DNA of 64,000 nucleotides from Clostridia bacterium (GTDB lineage: Bacteria; Bacillota; Clostridia; Oscillospirales; Acutalibacteraceae). Under the pieces are notes generated by a model. It worked only from the letters and a program-made list of their open reading frames with translations, was not told the DNA's origin and did not search any database. The position numbers and the translations under genes are program-made. The stretch lies in contig JAGAQV010000016.1 in assembly GCA_017622555.1 (NCBI GenBank), positions 1-64,000 of the forward strand. The letters run 5' to 3'. Shown here one piece after another: positions 48,027 to 57,693 of the stretch. The number at the start of each line of letters is the position of its first letter. The stretch's first letter is position 1.

Positions 48027-48102
<76 letters not shown>

Positions 48103-48110
48103 CAAAATCT

Positions 48111-48131
48111 CAGATACCCGAAGGGTGTCTG
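48111..48131 (+). terminator. Terminator of tRNA-fMet
   Basis: CAGATACCC / GGGTGTCTG (one G-T pair) with loop GAA, followed by ATATTTTTC. Confidence 0.85.
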
Positions 48132-48176
48132 ATATTTTTCTTGTTATGATGAAAGACTCAAATTAAGTGATATCAA

Positions 48177-48361
48177 GGGTTATGAGCCCGACCGGGCGAA
48201 TAACTCGAAGGGTGAGGTGGTAGTGAATGACAGTCTGGCAGACTGTCAGAGCCACCGAGCTGACCGCAGTATTTTCTCCGCAGAGAAAATACAAGACCGT
48301 TGGTTCAAGTCCTTCCTCCGCAACCAAAAACGAAAACAGTCACCTAAAAGGTGGCTGTTTT
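48177..48361 (+). repeat. tRNA-fMet-derived repeat, copy 1
   Basis: A 39-base motif (48177-48215) begins with the reverse complement of the tRNA anticodon arm. A hairpin-rich filler follows, with GACAGTCTG/CAGACTGTC inside GGTGG/CCACC and with GTATTTTCTC/GAGAAAATAC. At 48298-48326 there is an exact 29-base copy of the tRNA-fMet 3' half, from CGTTGG to CCA. A terminator hairpin AAAACAGTCACCT/AGGTGGCTGTTTT ends it (48333-48361). No intact 5' half of the tRNA is seen. Confidence 0.85.
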
Positions 48362-48402
48362 CATTTTTTATTATGAAAGAAAGATTTAAAGTTTTTGGCT
48401 TC

Positions 48403-48730
48403 GGGTTATGAGCCCGACCGGGCGAATAACTCGAAGGGTGACGTCGCGACCGCCGCCAGTGGCGGAAGAAGGGAACGTAAGGAAGCGCCGCGGTCGACAA
48501 GTGCGCCACGCTCCAAGTGGGCGCACTGTCGGGCACCGCAAGAGGAGGGAATTTGGCAAATAGAGGTATCATATTAACAAATATATCTTTAACAATGTTA
48601 CCGTTGGTTCAAGATCTCGGCTGCCGCCTCGGTCGGTGCTTCTGTGCTGCGCACAGAGGTGTCCGCAGGACACCCACACCCTTCCTCCGCAACCAAAAAC
48701 GAAAACAGTTGCCTTTTAGTCGGCTGTTTT
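48403..48730 (+). repeat. tRNA-fMet-derived repeat, copy 2
   Basis: The same 39-base motif (48403-48441) recurs without change. A GC-rich, hairpin-rich filler follows, including AGTGCGCC/GGGCGCACT. The tRNA 3' half is split here: CGTTGGTTCAAG at 48602-48613, then 66 foreign bases with CTGTG/CACAG and GGTGTCC/GGACACC hairpins, then CCTTCCTCCGCAACCA at 48680-48695. The A-rich tail and terminator (48702-48730) match copy 1. No protein gene is supported between 48103 and 48798. Confidence 0.85.
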
Positions 48731-48739
48731 GTCTTTCCA

Positions 48740-48768
48740 TTGAAAAAGCCTTTAAATTATGATATAAT
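48740..48768 (+). promoter_or_regulatory. Promoter of the barnase-like gene
   Basis: TTGAAA (48740-48745), 17 bases, TATAAT (48763-48768). Confidence 0.85.
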
Positions 48769-48798
48769 AAATAAAAATTTTTCAATAAGGTGAACGGA

Positions 48799-50213: not shown

Positions 50214-50242
50214 TAGACAAATTTATGTTTTTATGGTATAAT
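50214..50242 (+). promoter_or_regulatory. Promoter of the dlt-like envelope operon
   Basis: TAGACA (50214-50219), 17 bases, TATAAT (50237-50242) with TGG as an extended -10. Confidence 0.8.
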
Positions 50243-50280: not shown

Positions 50281-51555
50281 ATGCAAGAATCAGCCGAACA
50301 GCGCAAGGGGCTTCAAACCAAATATATTGTGCTTATTACTATTATTGCATCGCTTTTAATAATAGGCTGTGTTGTTATTGCTTTGATATCTAACAGCTAT
50401 AGCAAAGTAATAAAAAGAGAGCTAACCGTTGAAGCTGGTGCACAAAGTGTTTCGTTAGATGATTTTATAATTCAAAACAAGAAAAATTCAGATATAAGCA
50501 TGCTTACAAAATTATCTGACATTGACCTTAATGTACCTGGAACGTATACCGTTAAAATTAAGTGCGATCGCTTAAAAATTAAGTGCAAGCTTATAGTTGA
50601 TGATACCGTGGCGCCCACCGCTACACCTGTGGAAAACACTGTATTAAAGGGTGAAGAATTAGCGGCAGAAAAATTTGTTCAGAACATAATCGACGTTACA
50701 AAGGTTACAGCTATGTTTAAGAACAAGCCTGATTTTGAAAAGGTTGGTAAGCAGGACGTTACAATTATTCTTAAGGACACATCTTTAAACCAGACTGAAA
50801 TTGTTGCTGCACTTACCGTTGTTGAAGATACAATTGCGCCTGAAATTATAGGCGTTAAGAATATTAGTGTGTATGTGGGCGGTACCATAAACTACCGTAA
50901 AAACATATCCCTTAAGGATGATTATGACCAAAACCCAACCTTAACGGTTGACAGCAGTGAGGTTGATATTAGTAAAGAGGGAAGCTATACAGTAAAATAC
51001 ACAGCCACTGACTCGGCAGGTAATGTGGCAACTAAAACTGCAACGGTTATCGTAAGCCGACAGGTTAACACCAATGAGGATAAACGACTTGCTGCAGTTG
51101 AGCTTGCTGACAACCTTATTAAAAAAATTATAAAAGACGGTATGACCCCAAAGGAAAAGGTGACCGCTATATATAACTGGGCAAGAAGAAATATGCGATA
51201 CACAGGAAAGTCTGATAAATCGGACTATAGCGTAGAAGCATATAACGCTTTGAAAACATATTCGGGTGACTGCTTTAGTTATTTTTCGGCCACAAAGCTT
51301 ATGTTTGAACGCCTTGGCATAGCTAATATTGACGTTGCAAAGGTTAAAAACTACAGTAACGACAGCAACCATTTCTGGAGCCTTGTAAGTATTGACGGTG
51401 GTCAAACCTACTATCATTTTGATGCCACACCAAGAAAGGGTCCGGGGGATGACTTCTGCCTTGTGACAGACGCCTTCCTTGACGCTTATTCTAATTCACA
51501 CGGAAAGTCACACAACAGGGATATGTCACTTTACCCTGCAACACCTACTGAATGA
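50281..51555 (+). CDS. Membrane-anchored Ig-domain protein with transglutaminase-like domain
   Basis: The 424-residue protein has a short cytoplasmic start, one membrane anchor (about 16-38) and several beta-rich Ig-like repeats (DUF5011 type; VEDTIAPEIIGV.. near 180-190 and KYTATDSAGNVATKTATVIVS in parts near 240). The C-terminal transglutaminase-like domain has a visible triad: Cys331 in SGDCFSYF, His364 in SNHFWSL and Asp381 in HFDATP. It would face the wall. Relatives act as proteases, amidases or cross-linking enzymes. Its stop overlaps the racemase start by four bases (ATGA), so it belongs to the same operon. Confidence 0.88.
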   Translation: MQESAEQRKGLQTKYIVLITIIASLLIIGCVVIALISNSYSKVIKRELTVEAGAQSVSLDDFIIQNKKNSDISMLTKLSDIDLNVPGTYTVKIKCDRLKIKCKLIVDDTVAPTATPVENTVLKGEELAAEKFVQNIIDVTKVTAMFKNKPDFEKVGKQDVTIILKDTSLNQTEIVAALTVVEDTIAPEIIGVKNISVYVGGTINYRKNISLKDDYDQNPTLTVDSSEVDISKEGSYTVKYTATDSAGNVATKTATVIVSRQVNTNEDKRLAAVELADNLIKKIIKDGMTPKEKVTAIYNWARRNMRYTGKSDKSDYSVEAYNALKTYSGDCFSYFSATKLMFERLGIANIDVAKVKNYSNDSNHFWSLVSIDGGQTYYHFDATPRKGPGDDFCLVTDAFLDAYSNSHGKSHNRDMSLYPATPTE

Positions 51556-52295
51556 TAAAAATGGATATGATGAATAAAACTATTTTGGGCGTTATCGGCG
51601 GACTTGGCCCAATAGCAACCTCTCATTTTATGGAGCTTGTTATTAAAATGACTAAAGCCGAAACCGACCAAGAACATTTGGATATGATTATTTATAATTG
51701 CCCCTCCGTTCCGGACAGGACAAGCTACATACTGGATAATTCTAAGCCCAGTCCCTTGCCCGAAATTATACGCATAGGAAAGGCGTTGGCTGAGCAGGGC
51801 ACAAGTTATGTTTCTATACCCTGTATTACTGCACACTGTTTTTACGACCAATTAACACGTGAAATTCCTTTGCCGATTATAAACATAGTAACCGAAACGG
51901 TGGCGCACCTTAAGCAAAACAACATTCACCGTGTGGGTATTATGGCAACTGACGGTACCATAAGCGCGAAGCTTTTACAAAACGAGCTTAATGCCAACCA
52001 AATGACAGCTGTTCTTCCAAGCGCTGAACGCCAAAAAGACGTTATGTCTTTAATTTACGATTGCGTAAAGGCTGACAAACCTGTTGATATGGAAAAATTT
52101 AATGCAATAAAGCATGAGCTTAAAGAACAGGGCGCGGAAACGATTGTTTTGGGCTGTACCGAGCTATCTTTAATAAAGCGTGACTATGATATCGGGGCAG
52201 ACTTCATAGACGCAATGGAGGTTTTGGCTCAGCAATCCGTTTTAAAATGCGGCCGCAGTATAAAGGACGAATACCGTTGTTTAATTACTAAATAA
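51552..52295 (+). CDS. Aspartate/glutamate racemase family protein
   Basis: The 247-residue enzyme has VIGGLGPIAT near residue 14 and two catalytic cysteines: Cys91 in PCITAH (PCNTAH in most relatives) and Cys202 in LGCTELSL. The family interconverts L- and D-Asp or Glu without a cofactor; Ile in place of the usual Asn beside the first Cys may change the substrate. Several Met codons occur at the start, and MNKTILGVIGG at 51570 could be the true N-terminus. Its place directly before adenylation and carrier genes suggests it supplies the D-amino acid for them. Confidence 0.85.
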   Translation: MIKMDMMNKTILGVIGGLGPIATSHFMELVIKMTKAETDQEHLDMIIYNCPSVPDRTSYILDNSKPSPLPEIIRIGKALAEQGTSYVSIPCITAHCFYDQLTREIPLPIINIVTETVAHLKQNNIHRVGIMATDGTISAKLLQNELNANQMTAVLPSAERQKDVMSLIYDCVKADKPVDMEKFNAIKHELKEQGAETIVLGCTELSLIKRDYDIGADFIDAMEVLAQQSVLKCGRSIKDEYRCLITK

Positions 52296-52326
52296 AGATA
52301 CGTCTATTGAGGAGGCATAAAGCAAT

Positions 52327-53841
52327 ATGCAAACAAACGTATTGGAATATCTTGAAAAAACCGTTGTACGTCTTCCCGAAAAAGTGGCTTTTGCCAATGA
52401 GGTAGAGGGGCTTACATTTAAGCAGGTTTATGACCAAGCCCGTGCGGTAGGAAGCTTTTTGCACAGCAAGAATTTTTATAACAAGCCTGTTGTTGTGTTT
52501 ATGAAAAAGCACCCTAATACAATAACCGCCTTTTTTGGCGTTATATATTCGGGCAACTATTATGTTCCGCTTGACGAGGAAATGCCACGTCACCGTATTG
52601 AGCTGATTTTTGAAACACTTAAGCCTCAAGCTATTATTTGTGACGAGGATACACGCGAAATAGTTAACACCTTTAATTTTGACGGCGAGGCTTATCTTTA
52701 CAGTGATATCTCAAAGTCAAAAATTGATGATGTGGCTTTAAATCAAATTCGTGACAGGCAAATTGACACCGACCCCATCTATATTGTTTTTACTTCGGGT
52801 TCAACGGGTATTCCTAAGGGCGTTATGGCCTGCCACCGTTCCGTAATAGATTATATTGAGCATCTTTGCGACGTGCTTAAATTTGATGAGGATACCGTTT
52901 TTGGCAATCAAACTCCGCTTTATTTTGATGCCTGCCTTAAGGAAGTTTACCCAACCTTAAAGTACGGCGCAACCACCTATATAATTCCGAAACAGCTTTT
53001 TATGTTCCCTATAAAGCTTGTTGAATTTTTAAATCAGTTTAAAATTAACACGGTTTGTTGGGTTGTTTCGGCGCTTACAATGATTTCGGCCTTCCGCACC
53101 TTTGAAACCGTAATACCGCAGTATCTTCGCACTATTGCATTCGCAAGCGAGGTATTTCCAATTAAACAGTTTAATTTGTGGAAAGCGGCTTTACCTAATG
53201 CCCGTTTTATAAATTTGTATGGTCCTACTGAGGTAACGGGTATATGCTGTTATTACGAGGTTGACCGTGAATTCGGTCTTGACGAAACCATGCCCGTTGG
53301 CCGCCCCTTTAAAAACACAGATATTATTTTGCTTGATGAAAACAATAAGGTTCCCGCACAGGGTGAACAGGGAGAAATTTGTGTTCGTGGAACTTGTCTT
53401 ACCTTGGGTTATTACAAGAACAAGGAAAAAACAGACGAAGCCTTTGTTCAAAACCCGCTTAATGACTTGTATCCTGAGCTTATTTACCGCACGGGCGATA
53501 TTGGTAAGTACAATGAACGTGGCGAGCTTGTATTTATGTCCCGAAAGGATTACCAAATCAAGCATATGGGACATAGAATTGAGCTTGGCGAAATTGAAGT
53601 TATTGTAAATATGCACCCCGCTGTTTCAACCGCTTGTTGTATATTTGATAACGATAAGAAGAAAATAATTTTATACTATGTTGGCGATATTGATACCAAA
53701 GAAATAACTACCTATATCAAGGAAAAGCTTCCTCGTTATATGGTGCCGAATTTGGTTAAGCAGCTTGAAACAATGCCGCTTACTCCAAACGGAAAAATTA
53801 ACCGCGCATTACTTAAAGAACAATATTTGCAAAGCAAGTAA
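52327..53841 (+). CDS. Amino-acid adenylating enzyme, DltA-like
   Basis: This 504-residue stand-alone adenylation protein has the size of DltA. Core motifs are visible: VFTSGSTGIPKGVM (A3), YFDACLKEVYPTL (A4, with the Asp that holds the substrate amino group), NLYGPTEVTG (A5), YRTGDIGKY (A7), RIELGEIE (A8) and PNGKINR (A10). It would activate an amino acid with ATP and load it on the carrier protein encoded next. DltA uses D-alanine; the adjacent racemase raises the chance of another D-amino acid here. GAGGAGG precedes the ATG. Confidence 0.85.
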   Translation: MQTNVLEYLEKTVVRLPEKVAFANEVEGLTFKQVYDQARAVGSFLHSKNFYNKPVVVFMKKHPNTITAFFGVIYSGNYYVPLDEEMPRHRIELIFETLKPQAIICDEDTREIVNTFNFDGEAYLYSDISKSKIDDVALNQIRDRQIDTDPIYIVFTSGSTGIPKGVMACHRSVIDYIEHLCDVLKFDEDTVFGNQTPLYFDACLKEVYPTLKYGATTYIIPKQLFMFPIKLVEFLNQFKINTVCWVVSALTMISAFRTFETVIPQYLRTIAFASEVFPIKQFNLWKAALPNARFINLYGPTEVTGICCYYEVDREFGLDETMPVGRPFKNTDIILLDENNKVPAQGEQGEICVRGTCLTLGYYKNKEKTDEAFVQNPLNDLYPELIYRTGDIGKYNERGELVFMSRKDYQIKHMGHRIELGEIEVIVNMHPAVSTACCIFDNDKKKIILYYVGDIDTKEITTYIKEKLPRYMVPNLVKQLETMPLTPNGKINRALLKEQYLQSK

Positions 53842-53854
53842 GGGAGAAATAAAA

Positions 53855-54082
53855 ATGGAAGAATTATTAGAAATTTTATGCGAATTACACCCCGATGTAG
53901 ATTTTGAAAGCTGCACAACACTTATTGATGATAAGGTGCTTGATTCCTTTGATATCGTTACACTTGTTGCAGAAATAGACGACAAATTCAGTGTTGCTAT
54001 TCCCGCAGGTGAGCTTGTTCCCGAAAACTTTAACTCGGCACAGGCAATTTACGCTCTTATTGAAAAATTAGAAAACGAATAA
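53855..54082 (+). CDS. Acyl/aminoacyl carrier protein, DltC-like
   Basis: This 75-residue acidic carrier protein has a phosphopantetheine attachment site at Ser31 in KVLDSFDIVTL, matching the LDS(F/M) context of DltC. It would receive the activated amino acid from the adenylating enzyme and present it to the membrane acyltransferase. The ATG at 53855 lies 11 bases after AGGGAGA and 13 bases after the preceding stop; longer readings into the previous gene are rejected. Confidence 0.88.
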   Translation: MEELLEILCELHPDVDFESCTTLIDDKVLDSFDIVTLVAEIDDKFSVAIPAGELVPENFNSAQAIYALIEKLENE

Positions 54083-54103
54083 AAATCTTTTTAAGAGGTT
54101 ATT

Positions 54104-55672
54104 ATGCAATTTACATCTATAAGCTTTTTGGCGTTTGCAGGCTTATTGCTTTTAATTTATTATATAGTGCCAAAAAAGCTGCAGTGGGTAATACTTCTTA
54201 TAGCAAGCTATATATTTTACTTATCGGCGGGGCTTGAGTATTTATTCTTTATTGTTTTCACAACAATAACGACTTACATAGCATCAAGAATAATTGATTC
54301 ACGTCTTGCAAAGCAAAAGCTTTATTTAGCTGAGCATAAGGAAGAACTTTCCCGCGAGGAAAAAAAGGAATATAAGGATAAAATAAAGAAGAAAAATCAA
54401 ATAGCCTTGGTTGTTTATTTGGTTCTCAACTTCGGTGTTTTAGCTGTTTGCAAGGGACTTCTTATTGTGCCCTTTAATCAAATGGCAACAAATACCGTTC
54501 TCGGTTTTCTTTCTTTAGGCCTTCCGCTTGGCATTTCGTTTTATATGTTCCAATCGGTCGGATACGTTGTTGATATACACCGTGGTGTTGTAAGGGCAGA
54601 AAAGAATTTCTTTAAAGTCACCTTGTTTGTAAGCTTTTTTCCACAGCTGGTGCAGGGCCCTATCAGCAAATTTTCTCAGCTTGCGCCACAGCTTTTTTCA
54701 GAACACAGCTTTGACGGTAAAAAGCTTTCTTACGGACTTCAAAGAATTCTTTGGGGCTTCTTTAAAAAGCTTGTCATAGCTGATCGTATTGCTGCGGCTG
54801 TAGGTGCGCTCAAGGCTCCCGAATATGAGGGAATGGGCTTTTTGCTTTTGGCAACGTTTTATGCCGTGCAAATTTATGCCGACTTCACGGGTGGAATTGA
54901 TGTTGCAATAGGTCTTGGGGAAGCTTTCGGTATTCAAATGACCGAAAATTTTGTACGACCGTTCTTTTCCAAAAACATTGCGGAATATTGGCGCAGGTGG
55001 CATATATCTCTTGGTGAATGGATGAAGGATTATATTTTCTATCCGCTTTCGGTATCACAGCCAATGCGTAAGCTTTCAAAGTTCACCTATAAAAATATGG
55101 GTAATTTAGGTAAAAGAATACCTGTTTATATTGCATCAATTATTACTTGGTTTGCAACAGGTATATGGCATGGCTTTTCACCCAACTTTATCGTTTGGGG
55201 TATGCTTAACTGCTTTTTTATAGTATTATCGGAAGAGCTTATGCCGTTATATGCTAAATTCCACGCCCGCTTTGGTTTAAAGGATAAAAAAATATACGGC
55301 CTTTTTGAAATGGCTCGTATGTTTACCCTTATGAATTTAATTAGAATAAGTGATTTGTTCCCAAACGTATCACTTTATTTTTCAAAGCTTTTATCCCTTG
55401 TGACAAACCCCGATATTTCGGTGCTGTGGGATGGAAGACTGTTAAACTTGGGCTTGACCGGTCTTGATTACGGTATTATCGGTTTTGGCATATTAGTAAT
55501 GCTAACGGTTAGCATTATTGGTGAGAAAAAAGGCTCGGTCAGGGATTTGTTATCTCAAAAGCCCGCCGTTTTAAGATATGCGCTGATAATTGCGCTTTTA
55601 ATTATCACGCTTTTAGTGGGCAGCTACGGTATAGGCTATAACGCAAGTAATTTTATTTATAATCAATTTTAG
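54104..55672 (+). CDS. MBOAT-family acyltransferase, DltB-like
   Basis: The 522-residue protein has about eleven membrane segments. It carries the MBOAT features PISKFSQLAPQLF, EYWRRWHISLGEWMKDYIFYP with His300, and ATGIWHGFSPNFIVWG with the catalytic His356. DltB and AlgI-type members move an acyl or aminoacyl group across or at the membrane to an outside polymer. Between the carrier gene and the SGNH gene it fits the DltB role. A charged insert near residues 85-115 (rich in Lys and Glu) is probably cytosolic. Confidence 0.9.
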   Translation: MQFTSISFLAFAGLLLLIYYIVPKKLQWVILLIASYIFYLSAGLEYLFFIVFTTITTYIASRIIDSRLAKQKLYLAEHKEELSREEKKEYKDKIKKKNQIALVVYLVLNFGVLAVCKGLLIVPFNQMATNTVLGFLSLGLPLGISFYMFQSVGYVVDIHRGVVRAEKNFFKVTLFVSFFPQLVQGPISKFSQLAPQLFSEHSFDGKKLSYGLQRILWGFFKKLVIADRIAAAVGALKAPEYEGMGFLLLATFYAVQIYADFTGGIDVAIGLGEAFGIQMTENFVRPFFSKNIAEYWRRWHISLGEWMKDYIFYPLSVSQPMRKLSKFTYKNMGNLGKRIPVYIASIITWFATGIWHGFSPNFIVWGMLNCFFIVLSEELMPLYAKFHARFGLKDKKIYGLFEMARMFTLMNLIRISDLFPNVSLYFSKLLSLVTNPDISVLWDGRLLNLGLTGLDYGIIGFGILVMLTVSIIGEKKGSVRDLLSQKPAVLRYALIIALLIITLLVGSYGIGYNASNFIYNQF

Positions 55673-55681
55673 GAGTTAGTC

Positions 55682-56755
55682 GTGAAAAAGAAAAACGTAA
55701 TGGGTATTTGTACCGCTGTTTGCATTTGCCTGTTAATTTTGTGGCTTCTTCAGGCTTTATTAATGCCCAAATATATGAGCGAAAGTCAAGAAGGAGCGCT
55801 TATTGCTGAATATTATGACGAAGCCGGCGGGAATGACGTTATTTTCATAGGCGACTGTGAGGTTTACGAAAACTTTTCTCCCATAACTCTTTATGAGGAA
55901 TATGGAATCACGTCGTATATTCGTGGCAGTGCGCAGCAGCTTATCTGGCAGTCTTATTATCTTATGGAGGAAACATTTAAATACGAAACCCCAAAGGTAA
56001 TGGTTTTTAACGTGCTTTCTATGAAGTATGACACACCCGAAAGCACAGGCAATTTAAAACACCGTGAAGCATACAACCGTATGAACTTAGACGGTATGCG
56101 ATGGTCAATGTCAAAATGGAATTCAATATCCGCTTCCCTTACGGAAGAAGAAAAGGAATGGGGCGGAAACTGGAGCTATATCTTCCCGATTTTAAGATAT
56201 CACGACCGATGGTCGCAGCTAAGCTCGGAAGACTTTAAATACATTTTTAAGCGTGATGAGGTTTCAGATAACGGCTATTTAATGCAGGTTAACGTAAAGC
56301 CCGTTACCTCGGAACACGTTGAAAAGCCGATAGCTGATTATCAGTTTTCCGAAAACTGTTGGGAATATCTTGACGCAATGAAGGAGCTTTGTGAAAAGCA
56401 CTCAACTAAGCTTGTTCTTATTAAGGCGCCATCGCTTTCACCGGTTTGGTGGGATCAATGGGATGCTCAAATCGAAGAATATGCAAAGAAAAACGGGCTT
56501 CTTTACATTAACTTCCTTGACTATCAACAGGAAATCGGTATTGATTGGAACACCGACACCTATGATACGGGTCTTCATCTTAATGTTTATGGGGCTGAAA
56601 AGCTTTCCTCCTATTTTGGCAAAATTCTCAAAGACGAATACGACTTAGAAGACCATAGAAACAACGAGGATATGAGTAGTCAATGGACGAAAAAGGTAAA
56701 CAGCTATAACGAAAGAAAGAAATTACTCGAAGATATAAGAGACAATAAAAACTAA
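55682..56755 (+). CDS. Membrane-anchored SGNH-like protein, DltD-like position
   Basis: The 357-residue protein has one N-terminal anchor (about 7-28) and an outside domain of SGNH shape. The first motif reads IFIGDCEVYENF, so Cys59 replaces the usual nucleophilic Ser. The third motif, DTGLHLN, keeps Asp295 and His299. It sits right after the MBOAT gene, like DltD, and may accept the amino acid in transit or hand it to the polymer. A Cys nucleophile would make a thioester intermediate, or the protein may be non-catalytic. It starts with GTG at 55682, seven bases after AGGAG. Confidence 0.82.
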   Translation: MKKKNVMGICTAVCICLLILWLLQALLMPKYMSESQEGALIAEYYDEAGGNDVIFIGDCEVYENFSPITLYEEYGITSYIRGSAQQLIWQSYYLMEETFKYETPKVMVFNVLSMKYDTPESTGNLKHREAYNRMNLDGMRWSMSKWNSISASLTEEEKEWGGNWSYIFPILRYHDRWSQLSSEDFKYIFKRDEVSDNGYLMQVNVKPVTSEHVEKPIADYQFSENCWEYLDAMKELCEKHSTKLVLIKAPSLSPVWWDQWDAQIEEYAKKNGLLYINFLDYQQEIGIDWNTDTYDTGLHLNVYGAEKLSSYFGKILKDEYDLEDHRNNEDMSSQWTKKVNSYNERKKLLEDIRDNKN

Positions 56756-56767
56756 GAGGGTACAATT

Positions 56768-57277
56768 ATGAAAAAAAGCATTGTTTTAGCGGTTATTATT
56801 TGTATTATGGCAATTGTTTTTGCAGGCTGTGGCGGACAAAGCACCAACACAGGTTCTTCCGATGGCAAAAACAACGAGCCTACGCTCAGCTTTACGGTTA
56901 ATGGAACAAAGGTAGAGCTTGGTGTTGACGCAACCGACATTTTAAAGTCTTTGGGTGAGCCCAAAAGCGTAACCGAGGAGGCTTCCTGTGCATTTGAAGG
57001 TTTGGATAAAACCTATTTTTACGGAAACTTCTATCTTACAACATATCCAAACGGTGATAAGGAAAACATTTACAGCTGTTGGTTTGTTGATGATTCGCTT
57101 TCGACCGATGAAAACATTTATATAGGTGCAACCAAGGCTGAGGTTGAGTCGGCTTACGGTGCAGAAAGCTTTAACGGCAATAATGCTTACGTTATTAAAA
57201 AAGGCGCAAGTATGCTCACCATTATTATTGAAGATGATTGCGTGTCGGCAATTACCTATGATGCTATTATTGATTAA
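56768..57277 (+). CDS. Lipoprotein of unknown function
   Basis: The 169-residue product has a signal ending in the lipobox IVFAGC (Cys21), a short Gly/Ser/Asn linker, and a small domain with LSFTVNGTKVELGVDATDIL and GATKAEVESAYG segments. The latter recalls short repeat folds found in several outside lipoproteins, but I do not recognise the family. It is the last gene of the dlt-like operon, 12 bases after the SGNH gene. It may help at the wall side of that pathway. Confidence 0.8.
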   Translation: MKKSIVLAVIICIMAIVFAGCGGQSTNTGSSDGKNNEPTLSFTVNGTKVELGVDATDILKSLGEPKSVTEEASCAFEGLDKTYFYGNFYLTTYPNGDKENIYSCWFVDDSLSTDENIYIGATKAEVESAYGAESFNGNNAYVIKKGASMLTIIIEDDCVSAITYDAIID

Positions 57278-57686
57278 AAAATAAAACCAGTCACATTTAA
57301 GTGTGATGTCCTTAACGTAGAATTTGAAATTTCATTTAATCCTTGTTAAGAACCAGCATCGCATTTGTATGTACAAATACACTTGGGCGGTAGCCCAAAC
57401 CCACAGAAGCAGAAAAAGAGAAGATTCGTTTTAATTACGAGTCTTCTCTTTCTTTTGTCTGTAAGTGATATGCTGACTAAAGTCAGCGTGATATTTTCGC
57501 TTTGCGAAAGTGATATTAAGTCCTTTGGACTTAGTGATATTCTATTCGCCCCTAAACTTGCGAAGCAAATATCACTCGGTGTAAGCCGAATAACACTGCG
57601 TAGCAATAGAACTCGCCGTAGGCGAATAGAGTTGCGTGATACTCCGCTTGGAGTATCACGCATATTGGTGACTGGTTTTTATTTTA
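57276..57686. repeat. Nested palindromic element with CCAGTCAC terminal inverted repeats
   Basis: The outer arms are AAAATAAAACCAGTCAC (57278-57294) and GTGACTGGTTTTTATTTT (57668-57685). The left part has AGAGAAGA..TCTTCTCT with T tracts, a terminator-like hairpin (about 57416-57450). The right part is a chain of small hairpins separated by GTGATAT at 57465, 57488, 57510 and 57534, then its complement ATATCAC at 57569. The hairpins are GCTGACT/AGTCAGC, TTTCGC/GCGAAA, TAAGTCC/GGACTTA, TTGC/GCAA, TCGCC/GGCGA and GCGTGATACTCC/GGAGTATCACGC. No gene is supported. It ends eight bases before udk. Confidence 0.85.
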
Positions 57687-57693
57687 AGTGAAA

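Follow-up and report, generated by a model that had tools for sequence, protein, structure and literature searches.

A 64,000-nucleotide stretch of DNA (the window; positions 1 to 64,000 of contig JAGAQV010000016.1, assembly GCA_017622555.1) from a Clostridia bacterium of the Acutalibacteraceae carries an operon that is probably, though by no means certainly, a dedicated envelope acylation system using D-aspartate (D-Asp). Seven plus-strand open reading frames (ORFs) occupy positions 50281 to 57277 and encode, in order, a transglutaminase-like protein (TG), an amino acid racemase (RAC), an adenylation enzyme (A), a carrier protein (ACP), an MBOAT acyltransferase, an SGNH-fold protein, and a small putative lipoprotein (LIPO). 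A preliminary description, made from the sequence alone, had listed seven co-directional genes with tiny gaps or overlaps, and the ORF list bears this out: TG and RAC overlap by 4 bases (RAC also has later in-frame starts), and the remaining gaps are, in order, 31, 13, 21, 9, and 12 bases. The family labels assigned there hold for all seven genes, mostly by profile searches, with the SGNH fold supported by a predicted model and LIPO by a lipobox-like Cys. The genes had also been placed behind one promoter. A strong promoter-like site, TAGACA-17-TATAAT with the bases TG before the second hexamer, does lie at 50214 to 50242 on the plus strand (11/12 matches in a consensus scan), but it is a consensus match only, and such sites are common in the region (30, versus 21.1 [standard deviation, 4.3] in shuffles). 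Downstream, a pattern scan alone places a terminator-like hairpin at 57415 to 57451 on the same strand.

Conservation was followed in 80 named relatives of the locus, the best 80 of 557 confirmed, chosen by identity (A proteins 60 to 76% identical). All seven labels recur in 51 of the 80, so the gene set is not a product of chance, and RAC-A-ACP-MBOAT-SGNH-LIPO is uninterrupted in 41. A racemase is present in the locus stretch in 69 relatives, including three Paenibacillus loci (L111, L113, and L129) in which one racemase, the nearer to A, is encoded on the opposite strand, whereas a second is 2.5 to 3.6 kb off. It lies immediately upstream of A on the same strand in 61/80 and occurs in 62 of the 68 relatives with at least 2.7 kb of upstream sequence. 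Records of Agathobacter ruminis, Cuneatibacter, Pseudobutyrivibrio, and Paenibacillus are among the best 80. A class sample of 391 genomes, not selected by identity, was searched for A at E ≤ 1e-180 and for the racemase at E ≤ 1e-45. A was found in 37 genomes (own genome included), with the racemase ≤300 bases from it in 23, ≤2.5 kb in 2 more, and elsewhere in 8. The racemase neighbor singled out in the preliminary description is thus conserved, in 69/80 loci and at ≤2.5 kb in 25/37 genomes. Two of the eight genomes with the racemase elsewhere (G624 and G705) have split operons in which it stays with ACP-MBOAT-SGNH; in L096, L107, and L112 it remains with A. The halves of the split operons (L155 and L157 in G624, L156 and L158 in G705) read TG-A-LIPO and TG-RAC-ACP-MBOAT-SGNH-LIPO, TG and LIPO genes accompanying both.

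Within the family, the adenylation protein matched 23 of 120 genomes, counting the own genome, at E ≤ 1e-60. Among the 23 A loci of the other 22 genomes, 2 (64% and 62% identical) carry the whole set TG-RAC-A-ACP-MBOAT-SGNH-LIPO, 9 have a LysA/BtrK-like decarboxylase beside A or ACP, and 9 have the A-ACP-MBOAT-SGNH core or part of it only; the rest are cut by a contig end (1), carry a GNAT-like gene (1), or have an odd context (1). In a tree of 53 A proteins, the 26 rows of the racemase type form one clade (SH-aLRT, 100), whose neighbors are the decarboxylase type and L034 (94). RAC and A distances correlate at r = 0.52 (52 rows including the window), a value uncorrected for species relatedness.

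The A protein (52327 to 53841, plus strand, as are all genes and sites of the operon) consists of an AMP-binding domain and a C-terminal domain by profile search; its best solved match is LgrA, and it also resembles nonribosomal peptide synthetase (NRPS) adenylation domains. We read its pocket from an alignment of 81 rows (the 80 loci and the window) referenced to Bacillus cereus DltA (3fcc), with GrsA position numbering used alongside. In DltA, the D-Ala methyl group faces a cavity lined by Leu, Met, and Cys, the last of which selects for the D form (PMC8972799, where these three residues are numbered 197, 200, and 268). Asp201, Ala202, Lys205 (codon at 52939 to 52941; GrsA position 239), and Ala273 of the window align to DltA Asp197, Leu198, Met201, and Cys269. 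The Asp and the Ala are each present in 81/81 rows; the Met201 position holds Lys in 80 rows and Arg in 1, the Cys269 position (301) holds Gly in 73, Ala in 4, and Val in 4, and position 278 is Cys throughout (81/81). Eight further A proteins have Lys in seven cases and Arg in one (L161). The window code is DAKCAALGIK, the commonest among relatives DAKCAGLGMK. The Lys at position 239 suits an acidic side chain, and the pocket appears to indicate "acidic" better than which acid. When the specificity residues are aligned to DltA, as the preliminary description had proposed, the pocket proves unlike that of the D-Ala-specific enzyme (Ala/Lys/Ala versus Leu/Met/Cys).

The carrier ORF (53855 to 54082), which sits within a longer listed ORF, encodes a phosphopantetheine Ser in LDSFD that is kept in 77/78 rows; its PF00550 score (20.0 bits) is just below the cut-off of 20.8. 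MBOAT (54104 to 55672) matches PF03062 (1.5e-17), and DltB accounts for all of its solved matches at E ≤ 0.01; His356 is found in 74/76 rows, the other 2 being gapped. The protein ends in FIYNQF (55652 to 55669), and FxYxxF ends 72/72 MBOAT rows of at least 505 amino acids; PMC12148441 treats a C-terminal FxYxxF as an acyl-shuttle motif. A carrier and a fused MBOAT tail thus occur together here, as they do in operons of the decarboxylase and plain types, where the tails are variable at the first Phe. The SGNH protein (55682 to 56755) has an N-terminal helix and scores 20.5 bits on PF13472 (cut-off, 32.9); a profile search against solved sequences gave one match only, and that unconvincing, while a predicted structure model and fold comparison support the SGNH fold. 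In place of Ser-Asp-His, it has Cys59, Asp295, and His299, the codon of the putative nucleophile Cys59 lying at 55856 to 55858. This position is Cys in 66/67 rows and in eight further loci; in the other operon types it is Ser in 17/17 aligned rows (16 loci; five loci have no SGNH row in the alignment). On either side of these genes, TG (50281 to 51555) has an N-terminal hydrophobic stretch, an Ig-like domain, and a transglutaminase core (PF01841, 2.6e-11) whose triad-like Cys331, His364, and Asp381 are invariant in 24/24 aligned rows, and LIPO (56768 to 57277) has a lipobox-like Cys, with Cys21 and Cys74 invariant in 37/37.

The RAC product (51552 to 52295) matches PF01177 (9.8e-43) and TIGR00035, a model named amino acid racemase (208.3 bits; cut-off, 93.1), and its best solved match is the aspartate racemase 1jfl (E 3.1e-46). 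Catalytic Cys89 and Cys200, Arg54 (of PDRT), and Lys171 (P0002 numbering) are present in 70/70 rows; in the Pyrococcus enzyme, the Arg and Lys corresponding to Arg54 and Lys171 bind substrate carboxylates. The own genome has a separate MurI (TIGR00067, 214.3 bits; cut-off, 146.65), which rules out RAC, at only 39.4 bits on that model, as the housekeeping MurI. In a racemase tree of 99 rows, 67 of the 72 operon-labeled rows fall with L149 and L150 into one clade (100/96). An adjacent group of 14 rows holds 8 ligase-adjacent racemases, 3 others, and 3 from Paenibacillus. The labels of the tree understate the ligase group, since L176 and L182 were put under "other" despite a ligase-like ORF (on the other strand in L182). 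Recruitment into the operon itself is overstated by the four changes counted for the "operon" label (at least three are forced), as L111, L113, and L129 bear that label. A clean second case is provided by L098 and L108, whose operon racemase comes from another branch; this suggests from sequence that a racemase was recruited more than once.

The racemases of L149 and L150 are each flanked by an ATP-grasp ligase on one side and, on the other, by an ORF judged by eye to be asparagine-synthase-like. The L149 ligase is related to that of L151 (377 bits), which is 38 to 41% identical to proteins of three lactobacillus records; the match in Latilactobacillus curvatus is annotated as a carboxylate–amine ligase and lies beside an amino acid racemase, and that in Lactobacillus crispatus is a hypothetical protein beside asparagine synthase. 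The arrangement in L149 and L150 brings to mind AslA, RacD, and AsnH, which serve D-Asp and D-Asn cross-bridges in the account given in PMC4155827. The run of ligase, racemase, and asparagine-synthase-like ORFs at L149:7425-11261 and L150:6930-10766 may be a cassette for D-Asp/D-Asn cross-bridges within the window's own family. In G460 and G638, two genomes whose operon locus lacks a racemase, a related racemase elsewhere has as neighbors in its stretch a ligase-like ORF (69 and 62 bits, respectively) and a Mur-ligase-like ORF identified by eye.

Gene order and its conservation, the pocket residues, the shuttle motif, the Cys for Ser, and racemase kinship, all read from sequence, are consistent with a route in which we infer every chemical step as well as the amino acid, acceptor, and linkage. 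RAC would convert L-Asp to D-Asp; A would activate D-Asp with ATP, Lys205 binding the side-chain carboxylate, and load it on ACP as a thioester. MBOAT would accept D-Asp from ACP and bring it to the Tyr of its own C-terminal FIYNQF tail on the outer side of the membrane, and the tail would pass it to Cys59 of the SGNH protein, making the last enzyme intermediate a thioester. The SGNH protein would then transfer D-Asp to an envelope polymer, the first candidate being a teichoic-acid-like polymer. For lipoteichoic acid, the genome has three long sulfatase-family proteins and one weak match; the one compared scores 48.6 bits on the LtaS model (cut-off, 970). TG and LIPO would act outside, on the modified polymer or the complex.

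A Cys nucleophile means a thioester acyl-enzyme intermediate, and thioesters favor transfer to amines; an ester linkage, as the preliminary description had it, is therefore an assumption. We regard it as an unlikely variant that D-Asp is joined by an amide. The Cys-bound D-aspartyl thioester would then be handed to an envelope amine, whether of a lipid, a protein, or an amino sugar in a polymer, and the TG-like partner would extend, trim, or cross-link the amides.

Several observations weigh against a D-Asp system in every member or against D-Asp itself. No racemase lies in the available stretch of 11/80 loci (L122 and L125 end at a contig edge), most of which keep the same pocket; of the genomes concerned, 4 gave no racemase match at E ≤ 1e-10, and the other 7 carry a related one elsewhere. 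Likewise, 4 of the 37 A-bearing class genomes have no racemase at E ≤ 1e-45. In L116, a LysA/BtrK-like decarboxylase fused to TG occupies the racemase slot, with no racemase found in the genome (E ≤ 1e-10), and the genome of L115, whose A is identical to that of L116, also has no racemase match at this threshold. The L116 fusion is one 1,114-amino-acid ORF (L116:5529-8873) with decarboxylase and TG surface protein in a single frame. These loci count against the idea that every member strictly needs D-Asp. One locus with pocket and racemase, L102, has a divergent SGNH protein with Ser, the sole exception to Cys. Among the racemases, the first catalytic Cys is followed by Asn in 1jfl and in 8/70 rows, and by Ile, Val, or Met in 60/70; the RAC motif PCITAH (51822 to 51827) carries this change. 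Two of the 12 ligase-adjacent rows (L185 and L186) fall in a distant branch with 1jfl, the Pyrococcus enzyme, and the ligases match no D-Asp ligase model in NCBIfam or Pfam, so that the label "AslA-like" rests on gene context.

The preliminary description had proposed that the local racemase supplies a D-amino acid other than D-Ala, such as D-Asp or D-Glu. The same-pocket loci and genomes just described qualify this, and for the window the evidence favors D-Asp over D-Glu. We consider it improbable that the same machine uses D-Glu, or D-Asp and D-Glu, even though RAC belongs to the Asp/Glu racemase superfamily and the pocket alone would also fit Glu: the NRPS code for Glu, DAKDLGVVDK, shares D-A-K with the window, and that for Asp, DLTKVGHIGK, is a mismatch. 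With MurI in the genome, D-Glu needs no further racemase; besides its low TIGR00067 score, RAC groups with racemases many of which adjoin AslA-like ligases. An L- or other anionic amino acid (L-Asp or cysteate), with the racemase serving another purpose or making a mixture, also seems unlikely to us. It would fit the racemase-less loci that mostly retain the pocket and the replacement of the D-selecting Cys269 by Gly, Ala, or Val, owing to which the pocket is no argument for the D form; RAC also passes the NCBIfam cysteate racemase model NF052483 (CuyB; 205.9 bits; cut-off, 190). The ligase-adjacent racemases of L149 and L151 exceed that cut-off too (206.8 and 212.4 bits), so the cysteate label does not discriminate, and we do not take it at face value; retention of the racemase in rearranged operons also speaks against this reading.

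Divergent D-alanylation, with D-Ala from another source going onto the carrier and the racemase inherited along with the operon as a passenger, we judge very unlikely. The overall A-carrier-MBOAT-SGNH architecture is that of Dlt, and the operon could stand in for Dlt, as no DltA scores above the cut-off in the own genome or in 245 genomes of the order (15 genomes with a match at E ≤ 1e-100, the best at 502.7 bits; cut-off, 559.85); against this, all three side chains of the D-Ala cavity are replaced across the 81 rows. The NRPS-like character of A would allow the operon to make a carrier-bound block for a small molecule or peptide instead of modifying a polymer; we give this hardly any weight, because the MBOAT shuttle tail, the SGNH N-terminal helix, the surface-type TG, and the lipoprotein-like protein all point outside the membrane.

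Envelope D-alanylation adjusts the charge of the surface and how sensitive cells are to cationic peptides. If our preferred reading of a D-Asp system is right, D-Asp would add a zwitterion rather than a positive charge in 37/391 sampled class genomes and would have an envelope use beyond peptidoglycan cross-bridges. The MBOAT of such a system would be fed by a carrier and have the shuttle tail fused to it, and its SGNH transferase would use Cys as the nucleophile. If the linkage were an amide, the operon would represent a branch of the MBOAT-SGNH family that forms amides outside the cell, driven by a carrier. A literature search found no title or abstract describing this operon, which is weak evidence of absence because its coverage lacked most subscription papers and bioRxiv.

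Just 3' of the operon, a 38-nucleotide imperfect inverted repeat (74%) at 57270 to 57692 brackets 347 bases that contain several hairpin-like sites. Three imperfect 69-nucleotide repeats (48087 to 48155, 48311 to 48379, and 48680 to 48748) and a 42-nucleotide repeat pair (98%; 48177 to 48218 and 48403 to 48444) lie upstream of the gene at 48790.

The A-ACP-MBOAT-SGNH core is shared with sister operons. Nine loci of the decarboxylase type (L040, L043, L044, L048, L049, and L051 to L054) have, at positions 235/236/239, D-V-K (7/9) or I-A-R (2/9), thus keeping Lys or Arg at 239; unlike the racemase operons, they have a LysA/BtrK-like PLP decarboxylase, no racemase label, a Ser nucleophile where aligned, and no TG or LIPO label. 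Perhaps they attach a decarboxylated, GABA- or beta-alanine-like amino acid. Plain A-ACP-MBOAT-SGNH loci, or parts of them (L035 to L039, L041, L042, L045, and L047), have Ser at 235 in 9/9 and Leu, Ser, or Thr at 239; because this Ser replaces the Asp that binds the alpha-amino group, they may use a non-alpha-amino acid.

With the AslA/Aslfm and RacD cross-bridge system, the operon shares a related racemase as the D-Asp source; there, as PMC4155827 describes it, a cytoplasmic ATP-grasp ligase joins D-Asp to precursors of peptidoglycan, in contrast to the adenylation and carrier route seen here. Compared with MBOAT-SGNH pairs such as PatA/PatB of peptidoglycan O-acetylation, a carrier and an adenylation enzyme precede MBOAT; according to PMC12148441, other MBOAT/SGNH pathways have no similar carrier. 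Of the features of that family, the MBOAT His, the FxYxxF tail, and the SGNH-fold partner are present, and the block I catalytic Ser is absent. Like Dlt (DltA, DltB, DltC, DltD, and DltX), which D-alanylates teichoic acids, the operon unites an adenylation enzyme, carrier, MBOAT, and SGNH protein; unlike Dlt, it has a pocket for an acidic residue, a shuttle motif on MBOAT itself, Cys for the catalytic Ser, and its own racemase, TG, and LIPO. As to a separate DltX microprotein (no model search for one was made), gaps between the genes are ≤31 bases and the shuttle motif is borne by MBOAT. A falls below the DltA cut-offs (TIGR01734, 269.9 bits versus 559.85; PRK04813, 291.9 versus 476), ACP below those for DltC (31.6 versus 68; 22.5 versus 52.35), and MBOAT below that for DltB (TIGR04091, 141.1 versus 375); the SGNH protein has no DltD (PF04914) match at E ≤ 0.01, and the absence of DltD from its listed fold matches decides nothing. 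With these cut-offs missed and the pocket different, we dropped canonical Dlt as an identification. "Dlt-like," the term of the preliminary description, correctly describes the mode of working but is not a family assignment by any Dlt cut-off tested. On sequence grounds, the system is one that works like Dlt and MBOAT-SGNH acylation while standing outside the Dlt families tested.

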